A stretch of 64,000 nucleotides of DNA from a virus, in IMG/VR virus record IMGVR_UViG_3300027801_002650, positions 1-64,000 of that record. One strand, 5' to 3'. Made by a program: the position numbers and the translations under genes. Below are positions 6,045 through 57,264 of the stretch, in pieces. Numbering within the stretch: position 1 is the first letter of the stretch; the number at the start of each line of letters is the position of its first letter. The notes under the pieces are model-generated. The model was not told where the DNA came from and did no database searches. It saw only the letters and a list, made by a program, of their open reading frames with translations.

Positions 6045-6053
6045 TATTTAGGG
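6045..6053 (-). promoter_or_regulatory. Late promoter box upstream of sheath gene
   Basis: Minus strand CCCTAAATA, close to the T4 late box TATAAATA. It lies in the 63-bp gap between the terminase and sheath genes, 45 bp before the sheath ATG. The same CC(C)TAAATA string recurs at 12331, 12350 and 57257, each time just upstream of a gene. Confidence 0.55.
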
Positions 6054-11541: not shown

Positions 11542-12306
11542 TCACGCAACAAAAAAATCCATCGGTAATTCGAAGTTTAGGGACATTTCCTCATTCAGTA
11601 ACTGCAGATTTTCTTTTGCCTCTGAAAGGATCGCCTCGCCATTCAACGTCACACCTCCTGGTAACGCAACACCCTGTAACTTGATCAAATTTGACCCCCA
11701 CTGGTATCTGAAAAGTTCAGTACAATATTTCTTTAACCACATATCATTCCATACATCGGGGTATGTATCCGGATCAGTTTTCCTGTGACCCACAATAATA
11801 ATGGTATCACCTAATATTATATCTGGTTGGCTTGACGCTGCTCCTGGCCATACGAGGTCCAGATAAAGTCTATCTGTATGTCTATTGAATCTTATGTTTT
11901 GTCCACGACTGTTGAAAAGTTCATCAATCATGTCGAGGTTTTGCATTGATATAGCAAAGTTGTTCATATTACCTTTGGCAAGGTGAGGCATGTCATTCAT
12001 CATATATTGGTATTTGAATGACCACATACCGGAAGTGCCTCGCATACTAGTAGGTGGGAGTATGCGTTCAATGCCTATGTATTCGTCTGAGACTTCTATC
12101 CATTGCCTGTCAATGTCAACTTGGGAGAGTTCATGCTTCCAATAATATCGCGATGATCCGTCAAAATGGTAATCTGACCATTTCTGCAATCCTTCGTCTA
12201 TCCGATCTTCTAGTTGAACGTCGGCGACGTTGATTTCAATGACAGGTGACCCAAGTTTCCTTAGGCAATAATTCTTAAAATCTGTTCTGCTTACTGGTTT
12301 GCTCAT
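11542..12306 (-). CDS. 13: Neck protein (T4 gp13-like)
   Basis: About 254 aa from the chosen ATG at 12304-12306, which has an AGGGG ribosome site six bases upstream; an in-frame ATG at 12325-12327 lies too close to the predicted late start. MSKPVSRTDFKNYCLRKLG opens the family domain; ERILPPTSM, QNIRFNRHTDRLYLDL and WLKKYCTELFRYQWGSNL are typical of gp13. It closes the head-tail connector with gp14. It is the last minus-strand gene before the plus-strand cassette and must be re-promoted there, presumably from the box at 12331-12339. Confidence 0.92.
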   Translation of the reverse strand: MSKPVSRTDFKNYCLRKLGSPVIEINVADVQLEDRIDEGLQKWSDYHFDGSSRYYWKHELSQVDIDRQWIEVSDEYIGIERILPPTSMRGTSGMWSFKYQYMMNDMPHLAKGNMNNFAISMQNLDMIDELFNSRGQNIRFNRHTDRLYLDLVWPGAASSQPDIILGDTIIIVGHRKTDPDTYPDVWNDMWLKKYCTELFRYQWGSNLIKLQGVALPGGVTLNGEAILSEAKENLQLLNEEMSLNFELPMDFFVA

Positions 12307-12330
12307 GGTGCCCCTAAGAAAGTTCAACCA

Positions 12331-12339
12331 TATTTAGGG
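12331..12339 (-). promoter_or_regulatory. Late promoter box for gp13 (left arm of palindrome)
   Basis: Minus-strand CCCTAAATA, 24 bp before the gp13 ATG. The T4-late-like spacing would place transcription start about 18 nt before the start codon, leaving room for the AGGGG ribosome site. Confidence 0.55.
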
Positions 12340-12349
12340 TTACACGAAT

Positions 12350-12358
12350 CCCTAAATA
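12350..12358 (+). promoter_or_regulatory. Late promoter box for the plus-strand cassette (right arm)
   Basis: CCCTAAATA ends only 4 bp before the ATG of the carbamoyltransferase gene. If T4-late geometry applies, transcription would begin at about 12364, giving a leaderless or nearly leaderless message. Confidence 0.5.
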
Positions 12359-12362
12359 GTAC

Positions 12363-13739
12363 ATGAATGATAATGTGATTGAATGGGGATTAAGTTTTGG
12401 ATCCCATGACTCGGCTATTTCGGTATTTATTAATGATCAACTTGTCTTTGCTACAGAAGGCGAAAGATGGTCCGGAATCAAGCACGATAAACAACTCCCT
12501 CCTAACCTCCTCAATTTCCTCAGAACAACTTACGGTAAACCTGCTAAAATATACTATTTTGAGGACCACTACAAAAAGGAACATCGGCGCAAAGAAGCAG
12601 GTCAACCTTCTAAACCGAAACCATCCATCTGGAACGGCAACGATGTCTTTCACTATGATTCCTGGATTCTTACTGGTCATCATCAATCACATGCTAGCTG
12701 GGGATATTATACTAGCCCATTTGATACATGCACCACCCTTGTTATCGACAGTATCGGCGAATGGGATACAATGTCTGTATGGAAATGCGCAAATGGAAAA
12801 ATGACAAAAATATCTGGATGGACTTACCCACAATCATTAGGACTGATGTATACTGCCGCAACCATAGCAGGTGGATGGAGAGGCAACGACGAAGAATACA
12901 AAATGATGGGTGCATCTGCCTTAGGGAATGGTGACAAAGAATACAATATCCTGAAAGAACTATTTGATTCAAAATACAACTTTCACAAAGGATGGGTATA
13001 TGAGGGTGATAGGTTTGAAATTGCTGCTGGTGCCCAGAAACTATACGAAAAGTGGTTACATAACATAACAACGAACATAACTGGCCCCATAGTTTTGACT
13101 GGGGGATGCGCACTCAATGTACGAGCAAACATGCTGATCAAAAATGATCTGTACGTACCACCTGCCCCGAATGATGCTGGATCAGCAATAGGTTGTGTCT
13201 TAGCGCATAAGAAACAAAAACTTGACATTTCTCCCTATCTAGGGTATAATATAATGAAGCCAATTGTTTTAGAGGAAATAGGTAAAGAATTGACAGACGA
13301 CGGCATAGTTGGAGTTGCACATGGTAAATGTGAGTTTGGGCCAAGAGCACTGGGTAACAGATCTATACTAGCCAATCCTAGAAAAAGGCACTGGAAAGAA
13401 AGACTGTGCAAGATAAAGAACCGAAGCAGTTGGAGACCATTTGGTTGCATCGTGAAAGAAGAAGACGTAAATAAGTATTTCTTGCGTGGAAAACCTTCCC
13501 CTTATATGAATACATGCTTCTTTGCCAACCAGAATATGAATGATTTTCCTGTAGAATTATTGCACGAAGATCAAACTGTTAGAGTGCAAACAATAACTTC
13601 TGACCATTACCTTTATCCTCTCCTCAACGACTTCCCAGTCCTAATAAACACGTCACTAAATATAAACGGGAAGCCAATCTGTAATAATGAGCAAGATGTG
13701 GAAGATTTCAAACGGGAAACAGGTATCGCTGTCCTATAA
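12363..13739 (+). CDS. Carbamoyltransferase (NodU/CmcH/TobZ family)
   Basis: 458 aa. This family moves a carbamoyl group from carbamoyl phosphate via carbamoyl-AMP onto a hydroxyl (or related group) of a sugar, antibiotic or base. The N-terminal Kae1-like domain has the metal-binding GHHQSHASW (His106, 107, 110), a VIDSIGEWDT strand, EEYKMMGASALGN and LTGGCALNV (residues 246-253). The C-terminal part carries the hallmark EFGPRALGNRS at 324-334 and LINTSLNINGKPI. About 100 aa shorter than many bacterial members. Start: ATG at 12363, or in-frame GTG at 12375; no ribosome site is visible. A consensus promoter lies inside the gene. First gene of the cassette. Confidence 0.92.
   Translation: MNDNVIEWGLSFGSHDSAISVFINDQLVFATEGERWSGIKHDKQLPPNLLNFLRTTYGKPAKIYYFEDHYKKEHRRKEAGQPSKPKPSIWNGNDVFHYDSWILTGHHQSHASWGYYTSPFDTCTTLVIDSIGEWDTMSVWKCANGKMTKISGWTYPQSLGLMYTAATIAGGWRGNDEEYKMMGASALGNGDKEYNILKELFDSKYNFHKGWVYEGDRFEIAAGAQKLYEKWLHNITTNITGPIVLTGGCALNVRANMLIKNDLYVPPAPNDAGSAIGCVLAHKKQKLDISPYLGYNIMKPIVLEEIGKELTDDGIVGVAHGKCEFGPRALGNRSILANPRKRHWKERLCKIKNRSSWRPFGCIVKEEDVNKYFLRGKPSPYMNTCFFANQNMNDFPVELLHEDQTVRVQTITSDHYLYPLLNDFPVLINTSLNINGKPICNNEQDVEDFKRETGIAVL
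13222..13250 (+). promoter_or_regulatory. Consensus sigma70-type promoter inside the carbamoyltransferase gene
   Basis: TTGACA at 13222-13227, 17-bp spacer, TATAAT at 13245-13250; perfect consensus. It carries the same CTTGACATTT start and GG before the -10 as the early promoters at 338 and 977. In the coding frame it reads KLDIS...GYN. The transcript would start near 13257 and serve the genes from 13687 onward but not an intact carbamoyltransferase. Confidence 0.75.
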
Positions 13740-40863: not shown

Positions 40864-41501
40864 GAATCGGGGAAGGGTACGGTCTCGAACACGAAACAAG
40901 ACTCGAAAAGCAGTTAGATATTAATTGGATTCGAGACGAAGAGGAAGGAGTTGCACTCCAATGGAACAAGCTAAGAGCATTCGAGGGCGAGGATTGCCCC
41001 GTGGTGCTAATCGACATTGACTTAGAGTTCATGAACGACTACAAAGATTTGTTTGAGTTGCCTGTTAAGAGGGGCGAGTTCCTGACTACAAAAAACTGGT
41101 ACGGGCAAGATAATCCTACAGCAATACATTACAAAATCGCAGGAGGATTTTACAAGTTTTGGCCAGAAGACACCAAATATATTTTAGATACGTTCAGAAA
41201 AGATAAACAATATTGGCAAAATCACTACATCGCTGAGGGAATAACCTGCGGACCTGTCAATGGGGAAATGAATTTTGTTGAAGATTGTGTCAGAGGGAGA
41301 ATCGGTGCCACCCCTCTGAAAATGAAATTTGTTCCAGATGCGTGGCATACTAAATGGAAAGATAAACCTGAAAAGGAATATATTTACCATATGTCAAAAT
41401 TATATGATAATGAATATTTATGGTTGGGAGATTTCCACCCCGATATTAAGCTGGTACACTACCAGCAGGGGAAAGATTTGCCTCATCATCAGGAACCTTA
41501 G
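40839..41501 (+). CDS. Glycosyltransferase-like protein, 220 aa
   Basis: DxD motif in VVLIDIDLEFM near residue 58, after ALQWNKLRAFEG; AGGFYKFWPEDTKYIL and a C-terminal LVHYQQG follow, a common plan in small GT-A glycosyltransferases. It is the last gene of the cassette. Its last 56 bp overlap, tail to tail, the end of the minus-strand gene at 41446-42027, so there is no room for a separate terminator between the two convergent units. Confidence 0.6.
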   Translation: MDYRVYAVRIGEGYGLEHETRLEKQLDINWIRDEEEGVALQWNKLRAFEGEDCPVVLIDIDLEFMNDYKDLFELPVKRGEFLTTKNWYGQDNPTAIHYKIAGGFYKFWPEDTKYILDTFRKDKQYWQNHYIAEGITCGPVNGEMNFVEDCVRGRIGATPLKMKFVPDAWHTKWKDKPEKEYIYHMSKLYDNEYLWLGDFHPDIKLVHYQQGKDLPHHQEP

Positions 41502-49144: not shown

Positions 49145-52100
49145 TTATGAGAATGCAAAAAATCTTAATGATTTCAAATATGGAACGGTAGTAGAGTCAG
49201 CAGATGTAAAGACAACCTTAACCTGAAAAGTAGAATAGGTGTCATAGACTATCTCATCTTTGTCTCGTATAATAAAATCCTTTGGTGTTTCCCAACCAAA
49301 GGTCGTAATTCCGTCCCCATAAACATATTTATTTTGTGTACCTTCGAGTTTATGATACATTGCATCATAAATCTTTTCTTTACTGAATCCTGAGACTGCT
49401 CTGAAATACACATGCACGTCAGTGCCTCCTGGTCGAACTCCCTCTGCCATAACCCGTAATCCTTTAGCAGGTATGTTCGCCCCTGTAGCAAAAATCTTTG
49501 AAATGTATCTTGCCTGACAGTTACCTTTATAAGGATCAAGCTCGCTTTTTGCTCGAATAATAGCGACAGTTGAAGGAGGTGTGGAACCTGACTTCTGTAA
49601 TACTGTTGCAGTTACATTTCCTGTGTATCCTGTGCCTTGATTTGTTACGTTTACTCCAAGAACACGTCCACCTGGCCCAACGACGAGTTCGGCGACTGTA
49701 ATCTCGAGTCCGTTTGCATATGTTCCACCACCCGTCAGAGCGATTGTAGCATTTGTATTTCCTGAAGCAGTTGTATCGTAATCATATCCTAGACCTGGCT
49801 CTTCAACAATAAAGTCTGAACCAACCATTGTAGCATCGTTAATAATGTTTTCAGTCGTTACCAATTTCATCTGATCCTTATCGAGGACAGGTGAAACTCT
49901 ATCATCCCATGTCTGCATGCTTACGTTGATCACGAAAGTATTAGAATCATTTGCCATAACTCTTTGCTGACCTTCTCGACCGAAAACATTAAAATTATAG
50001 TTTTCGTTTACTCTAAAGGTTGTGTACGACAGATCAGTACCAGTTGCTACTGAGGTTGATCGGTATGTAAATCCTGGTTCAGCAATATTCCCGAAAGTCA
50101 TGTATGGCGACCTGACATAAAAATTATCGTATGCCGCATTGACAGTTGGGAAATCCTTGACGTTGAAAAATGCCGCAGAGTTAGGAGTATTATAAAACTT
50201 CGCTCTATGTAAATCTATTGTCAAAGTAGTATTATTGTCCCTGTCCCAGCGACCATGGTTGTTCGTTCTCCAGAGTCCTAGGAAGTGTTTAAATCGTGGA
50301 ACTCTGTGTTCTTCGTTCAGTAGAGTCTCTCCGACTCGTGACATGTGCAGTCTGTACTCAGGATTATCCGAGTCAAAACATAAAGCATATGCCTTTCCTG
50401 GCTTACAAAAAACAGGATTGAGAAAGGTAAATGCCGTTTGAGTATCATCATTTGCACTGTCAGGAATTATTACTTGAGTAATCTCAGTTGCCTGAATCAG
50501 TACTTCTGAAAAAGGAAGTGTCTCACTCGGAGACGGAAATCCATCAACCATAGGACGCATTGAAATTTTCAATGGTAATCCAGTATTGGCGAAAGAATCG
50601 CTATTAGCAACATAGCAGAATCCACCTGTTAGAAATAATCCTCTTGGATAGTCCGACGGATCAACATAAAGCTCTTGAGCAAAGCACCTCTTAAAATTCG
50701 AGGAAGTCTTTTGCCTTTCGACTTCAGTATAATAAACATTAGCATCGTTATTGTCTGCTCGTCTCTTGAGAGTTTCCCTTGTCGTAGAATTGTTCGGCAA
50801 GAAAGGTTTACCATAAAAGGTTGTTTCCGCGAACGTAGTCTCTGTTGCAGTTGCATCGGTATCATCAGCATTTGTGATACGAAATACCTTGTCAGTAGCG
50901 GTAAATCTACCTGCTGGCAGGTCATATGCTCCAGCAACGATCCCAAATTGATCAACAGCAAGCGATGTAGGTGCTGGTTCGAACGTAAGGATCTGACCTC
51001 TTGCTCCAGAATCCTGCCCGTCAACCGTATCCACCGAAGTAGTACTAAAATCCTGATCAGAAGTTTGGATTACGTAGAGTGAAGTCTGATTTGCACTTGG
51101 TTTTGCTATAGCAACTACGATACCTACTGCAGTTTCAAGTGATACTGCTTGTCGTACCTCTTCACCTGTATTGTACAGGGCAGTCGCGATATTTTCGTCA
51201 TCAAACTTGATTACCTTAGCAAATCGTATGAAGTCTTTATCTATTCTTTCGTTATCAAAATAAACAAAAAGATTAGCATGTGCTTTCATTCCCTCAGCAG
51301 AAAAATAAACAGTTTGCTTTGGCATGTAAAAGGCAGTCGTCAAATCTCTTTCGTATGCACCGCCACCTATGCTTTCAGTAAACTGAACAGGTGCAACAGG
51401 TTGCATAATATCATCAGAAAGCAAACCGTATTGGCGAGAAGTCTTTGGTCTTTGTGTCAATCGTATAGAATGTACCCCGTACCAGTGGAACTGGTGCAAG
51501 TTCATTACAGCATTTTTATACGGCACGATCGACTTTTCAAATGCATCGTTCTCACCTACTGTATTAATAATAGTAGAAGGTCTGACAGTATCGTCCATCC
51601 AGTTGTTAAACTGAGGAGTAATACTTATCTGACCTCTGAAAGCAGATCGACCAAAAGGATTCAATGGAACCGTATTAGTATAATATGGATTCGTGAATAC
51701 AGTATTGTCGTTAATTGCCTCAGCCACTATGAGAGAAGGGTAACTATCTACGTTCTTAGAAGCGATTGATGAATACTCAAGGTCGTATGTGTTAAGTATT
51801 ATTTTCGGGTGTACTGTTTTCTCGTACGTATCGACACTTGCTGCGAAATCAATATTGTCTATGTCACTCTTCCCGTGCCCCTCAAAGTTATCAAAGGCAG
51901 AGAATACCGTATTTGGATGCCCGTCATTCATATTCTGGTTGGCAAAGTTTACAGCCAAATCGTAGAATGGATTTATCTCAGCATCAGCAGGCATCAACCG
52001 TATATCAGAAGGATCGGCTGAAAATGGAACTGTAGTAACGTCTGTCAGTTCGTAATGGGATTTCCTTGGAATTGGAGCATAAGGTTTTGCAGAATCACTG

Positions 52101-57256: not shown

Positions 57257-57264
57257 TATTTAGG
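57257..57264 (-). promoter_or_regulatory. Late promoter box upstream of gp8
   Basis: Minus-strand CCTAAATA in the 61-bp gap between the giant protein gene and gp8. Expected start near 57250 leaves a leader of about 43 nt with an AGGAGA ribosome site. Same box as at 6045, 12331 and 12350. Confidence 0.5.

Follow-up and report, generated by a model that had tools for sequence, protein, structure and literature searches.

The gp13/carbamoyltransferase junction

The window, which is the whole stretch of 64,000 nucleotides analysed here, belongs to a virus record of 80,839 bases (an 81-kb fragment). The record is that of a T4-like phage, with genes for the portal, the tail sheath, the terminase, a gp15-like sheath stabiliser, a gp14-like protein and gp13 on the minus strand. 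The gp13 gene and a carbamoyltransferase gene, the first of a 29-kb cassette, form the only divergent gene pair of the window. The features of this junction, and two other late promoters of the window used for comparison, are the following:

11542 to 12306, minus strand: gp13 (head-tail adaptor Ad2, neck protein), 254 aa (phrog_211, 1.7e-32; tblastn)
12311 to 12317, minus strand: gp13 Shine-Dalgarno sequence TTAGGGG, followed by CACC and the ATG, four bases ahead of the ATG
12331 to 12339: left repeat arm, TATTTAGGG in plus-strand reading, holding the leftward late-promoter box CTAAATA (12331 to 12337, minus strand), the putative gp13 promoter
12340 to 12349: spacer TTACACGAAT, 10 bp between the arms
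12350 to 12358: right repeat arm, CCCTAAATA, holding the rightward late-promoter box CTAAATA (12352 to 12358, plus strand), the putative cassette promoter
12359 to 12362, plus strand: gap gtac, 4 nt from box to start codon
12363, plus strand: predicted transcription start at the A of the start codon (leaderless mRNA), from the box register (PMC1524935) and the conservation of the spacing
12363 to 13739, plus strand: Nol-like carbamoyltransferase, 458 aa, first cassette gene (PF16861, 1.8e-39; PF02543, 6.2e-29; phrog_1601, 3.4e-76)
12363 to 41501, plus strand: cassette, 29 kb, 35 same-strand ORFs with no intergenic gap above 7 nt
6045 to 6051, minus strand: late promoter of the tail sheath gene, leadered (44-nt leader with GGAG)
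57257 to 57263, minus strand: late promoter of a 611-aa gene, leadered (49 nt, AGGAG)

As the preliminary description had proposed, a perfect 9-bp inverted repeat (TATTTAGGG / 10 nt / CCCTAAATA) places identical late boxes back to back. The pair spans 28 bp, and both boxes lie correctly upstream of their genes and face outwards. The leftward copy had been called well spaced for gp13, and it does end 24 nt before the gp13 ATG (12306, minus strand), with the TTAGGGG ribosome site in between. The rightward copy, as also stated there, leaves 4 nt between its end and the carbamoyltransferase ATG at 12363. No Shine-Dalgarno sequence precedes this ATG within the predicted carbamoyltransferase transcript, which is the arrangement of a leaderless mRNA. 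In the record, CTAAATA precedes gp13, the tail sheath gene and gp25, as is expected of a T4-type late box.

Significance of the repeat and the boxes

The palindrome was rejected as an independent signal, as such repeats are expected by chance: the window holds 7 perfect 9-bp inverted repeats with a gap of at most 30, versus a mean of 9.8 in block shuffles. The CTAAATA box is mildly over-represented (17 copies versus 11.5 expected). In the late boxes of the clade, a C stands immediately before CTAAATA in 21 of 27 cases, and a further C one base out in 12 of 27. Since the C before CTAAATA belongs to the late-box consensus of the clade, the repeat arms are largely two copies of the clade late promoter. 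The feature above chance is the placement of the boxes, together with the spacing kept in the relative L005. A scan of IMG/VR for TATTTAGGG-N0-30-CCCTAAATA returned 36 stretches. Most were unrelated hairpins or came from other phages, and only L005 (identical to L038) matched the gp13/cassette junction.

Relatives of the junction

No near-identical phage records were found for the region. A single-protein scan of viral contigs found no relatives of the carbamoyltransferase, and none were found in cellular genomes; alignment gave only two contigs that were already known, and a degenerate DNA pattern of the N-terminus gave the same two. The comparison comprises four informative contigs with gp13 (L004, L005, L006 and L007).

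L005 (gp13 83% identical) shares the repeat, the length of the 10-bp spacer (6 of the 10 bases identical to the window) and the exact 4 nt (gtat) between the box and the ATG. Its contig covers only about 11 codons of the carbamoyltransferase, which starts with MIEWGLSFG, versus MNDNVIEWGLSFG in the window (MIEW versus MNDNVIEW, four codons shorter). The 12-nt length difference thus falls after the start codon and not before it. L006 and L007 (gp13 about 65%, carbamoyltransferase 60-62% identity) also carry related cassette genes. The boxes are crossed in these two contigs, and both genes have leaders of about 30 nt, in which the ribosome site coincides with the GGG side of the opposite box. 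In L004 (gp13 85%) same-strand genes replace the cassette upstream, and only gp13's own box is kept.

Since L004 keeps the gp13 box without the cassette, the left box would be older than the cassette in this comparison. There seem to be at least two layouts by which the cassette was given late control. The palindrome and leaderless translation are not needed for the cassette, because L006 and L007 have crossed boxes, leaders and ribosome sites. The repeat is nevertheless present in one of the three relatives that carry the cassette, so its absence from all of them, which the preliminary description had named as a refutation, is not what is found. The double late promoter proposed there is likewise upheld, as far as sequence comparison goes, by the left box serving gp13 in the cassette-free L004 and the right box being kept in L005.

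The repeat sits exactly at the edge of the cassette, as would an insertion scar or a recombination site, and it could also be read as an RNA hairpin or terminator instead of a promoter pair. This is very improbable, considering that the left box occurs in L004 without the cassette, that L006 and L007 have the cassette without the repeat, and that similar back-to-back boxes lie at gp4 junctions without any cassette (G006, G008 and HTVC008M). Moreover, the repeat would be in neither predicted transcript, and its stem has no T-run.

A fixed 4-nt spacing in the clade

A second CTAAATA-N4-ATG lies in the other half of the record, at gp25 (phrog_261; record positions 70202-70189). The 4-nt spacing of gp25 is found in five of five contigs, with the spacers ctgt, catc, caat, aaac and agac. 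The gp25 box can overlap the stop codon of the upstream gene, so translational coupling could contribute there. Furthermore, gp4 (phrog_218) has a GTG exactly 4 nt past the box in both contigs available, which are also among the gp25 relatives. The gp4 boxes are also back to back (TATTTAGGTGACCTAAATA and TATTTAGGTTACCTAAATA); in the one tested, the gene opposite is a leadered tail-tube-cap gene. The spacing is therefore conserved while the spacer letters are not, and GTG can stand for ATG.

The pattern CTAAATANNNNATG (CTAAATA-N4-ATG) has 7 matches in about 220 kb of clade contigs versus none for the reversed control, and 2 matches in 22 other records. Box-to-start distances in the clade fall into two groups: 8 genes have exactly 4 nt, and 22 have at least 12 nt. 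Of two further genes, one lies at 9 nt and one at 10 nt, neither with a CTAAATA box. Permuted boxes average 0.14 per motif at 4 nt. The contigs of the clade are related, and the eight 4-nt genes amount to about three independent families (gp25, gp4 and carbamoyltransferase). The spacing is kept at exactly 4 nt in L005, gp25 and gp4, as expected under selection.

These data bear on which codon starts the carbamoyltransferase. The rightward box could be a real late promoter with translation beginning at the GTG at 12375, on a 12-nt leader without a Shine-Dalgarno sequence. This GTG aligns with the ATG of L005, L006 and L007, a GTG start is used at gp4, and the A of the ATG at 12363 is missed under the strict T4 register. 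However, the additional 12 nt keep the reading frame and place the ATG at the exact distance found in L005, gp25 and gp4, and none of the other boxes listed has a 12-nt leader that lacks a ribosome site. A start at GTG 12375 is thus considered unlikely, and the ATG at 12363 is kept as the start codon.

A matching layout outside the clade

A fixed short spacing, of 5 nt, was also found in other marine phages: 12 genes lie 5 nt past a late box in HTVC008M and 6 in Mosig (both Pelagibacter/SAR11 phages), and 3 in Melnitz (OM43), 21 in total. Among them, gp25, gp4 and gp2 recur in each phage and the tail tube gene in two. In HTVC008M, gp4 and gp2 are divergent, with boxes 2 bp apart and both genes at 5 nt, which would be a doubly leaderless version of the junction. 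Two or three genes at 5 nt were also found in each of the metagenomic T4-like contigs G012, G014 and G018. On the other hand, the same measure gave no such gene in T4 (0/32), phiM12 (0/16), Cr30 (0/5) or the cyanophages P-TIM40 and S-SM2 (0/70).

Pattern counts at 5 nt gave 27 matches versus 2 controls for HTVC008M, Mosig and Melnitz together, and 15 matches versus 20 controls for ten cyanophages (Fisher p ~2e-5 between the two groups, with matches treated as independent). A generic spacing effect across all T4-like phages was rejected on these cyanophage counts. T4 and RB49 gave 4 matches each and no controls, and none of the T4 matches is at the start of an ORF of at least 70 aa.

Shine-Dalgarno-like motifs precede few of the genes at 4 or 5 nt (1/8 in the clade, 2/12 in HTVC008M, 0/6 in Mosig and 0/3 in Melnitz) and most of the leadered genes (16/22, 13/15, 23/29 and 25/28, respectively).

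In six IMG/VR contigs (L041, L043, L055, L058, L061 and L063), two divergent genes of unknown function are separated by a palindromic CCCTAAATA pair, and the ATG of the right gene lies 5 nt after the box.

Predicted transcript start and probable late expression of the cassette

The T4 late box occupies positions -13 to -6 (PMC1524935), so that +1 falls six bases past the box; with a spacing of 5 nt, this is the A of the ATG. In leadered genes, the fraction of purines at the sixth base is 0.80 in T4 and 0.86 in the SAR11/OM43 phages; in those of the clade it is 0.72 at the fifth base, from 18 genes only and with no clear peak. At the junction, +1 would fall on the T at 12364 under the strict T4 register, and the clade would need a start one base nearer the box. 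The 4-nt spacing thus places the predicted 5' end at the start codon to within one base of the T4 register, and the carbamoyltransferase message probably begins at the start codon itself. That the first cassette gene is probably leaderless had already been suggested, and the suggestion gains support from the T4 register, the 4-nt spacing at gp25 and gp4 and the 5-nt spacing in three marine phages.

Because no gap in the cassette exceeds 7 nt and no sigma-70-like site was found at the junction (12100-12700, weak scan), the rightward box is the only candidate for an intergenic promoter of the 29 kb, and further promoters may lie inside genes. One of these could be an early or middle promoter within gp13, antisense to it, from which the cassette would be read, with the rightward box incidental or only auxiliary. 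Early expression is frequent for metabolic genes of T4-like phages, and genes of RB49 and S-PM2 can carry early and late promoters together (PMC2984593). Nevertheless, the scan of the junction argues against such a promoter, as does the conservation of the box and its spacing, and a transcript from inside gp13 would carry an AGGG 23 nt before the ATG that is paired in the repeat. This reading is regarded as improbable, and late expression together with the virion genes is the simplest one for the cassette.

The mechanism proposed is as follows. On the leftward side, the late RNA polymerase (presumably the host core plus a late sigma factor of the gp55 type, whose gene was not located on the 81-kb fragment) would initiate about 5-6 nt past the box and give gp13 a leader of about 20 nt with its Shine-Dalgarno sequence. 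On the rightward side, the same rule would set the 5' end on the carbamoyltransferase start codon, producing a leaderless cassette message that ribosomes would start by binding the 5'-terminal AUG. The 29-kb cassette would then be expressed late, alongside the virion genes. We consider it likely that two divergent T4-type late promoters make up the junction, both of them extended CCCTAAATA boxes, and that the cassette message is leaderless and expressed late; the activity of the boxes, the 5' end, the leaderless translation and the late timing are deduced from sequence. The junction would be a case of a wider habit, in which the clade and other marine T4-like phages fix the starts of certain late genes 4 or 5 nt behind the box.

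Comparison with known systems

It is generally assumed that the late genes of T4-like phages carry leaders with ribosome sites. The junction resembles the T4 late promoters (gp55/gp33/gp45-dependent, TATAAATA) in having one box, roughly a helical turn ahead of the start, and no -35 element, and divergent late genes of T4 are also transcribed from such boxes (PMC2988020). Unlike in T4, the box is the CTAAATA variant and the start codon is 4 nt from it. The late promoters of Aeh1 (CTAAATA from -12) have the same core in silico (PMC1524935). However, Aeh1 is from a different phage group with no leaderless genes reported, and at 5 nt it shows no excess (1 match, 1 control).

The lambda cI message from PRM is a leaderless phage mRNA. 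It is alike in its 5'-terminal AUG and lack of a ribosome site, but here the start would depend on a T4-type late box at a fixed spacing, and several virion genes as well as the first gene of a cassette would be concerned. Leaderless mRNAs have been reported as frequent in phages generally (PMC5312081). As for gp25, T4 gene 25 has a split ribosome-binding site in which a hairpin bridges a distant Shine-Dalgarno sequence (PMC3014915). Initiation at gp25 would be non-canonical in both cases, but in the marine gp25 genes a late box lies 4-5 nt ahead of the start codon, and a Shine-Dalgarno sequence is lacking. In the open-access literature searched, no earlier report of leaderless late genes in T4-like or SAR11 phages was found, the papers giving only unrelated mentions or entries in reference lists.

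We conclude that leaderless late mRNAs are, on the sequence data, a likely recurrent mode of expression in some marine T4-like phages, of which the junction would be one case. A broader proposal, which we somewhat favour, is that T4-like phages of several marine heterotrophs use leaderless late mRNAs as a standard, host-linked mode. The starts of gp25, gp4, gp2, the tail tube gene and an imported cassette would be tied to the box at a distance that differs by clade (4 nt in this one and 5 nt in the SAR11/OM43 phages), whereas cyanophages of the same family, Kyanoviridae, would not have this arrangement. If many late genes of the SAR11 and OM43 phages and of the clade are leaderless, virion production would hinge on the ability of the host to initiate at a 5'-terminal AUG, and these phages include some of the most abundant marine viruses. 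In addition, about 10 bp of new promoter would have sufficed to bring a 29-kb cassette under late control. The simple rule of a box plus 4 or 5 nt could also serve to correct start codons and assign late genes in metagenomic phages.

Content and surroundings of the cassette

The cassette is rich in biosynthetic enzymes. About 14 ORFs have radical SAM matches, some of them below the Pfam cut-off, and other matches are to a tryptophan halogenase, an AMP-binding enzyme, a nitroreductase, an Asp/Asn hydroxylase and a QueC-like protein. It looks like a natural-product or modification pathway. The more distant L006 and L007 (G003 and G004) have related carbamoyltransferase, halogenase, hydroxylase and AMP-binding genes at the same place beside gp13, with a different gene content. 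In the Pelagibacter phage Mosig (L074), the genes immediately upstream of gp13 encode a heme oxygenase, a phycocyanobilin:ferredoxin oxidoreductase and a 2OG-Fe oxygenase. This suggests that the place upstream of gp13 is a recurring site for metabolic genes.

At its other end, the cassette converges with the tail-gene operon, with a gene overlap of 56 nt (41446-41501). Finally, a perfect 24-nt match (E 8.5e-6) links the carbamoyltransferase gene (13520-13543) with a tail gene (51924-51947); it is in the same reading frame, and FANQNMND is present in both proteins.
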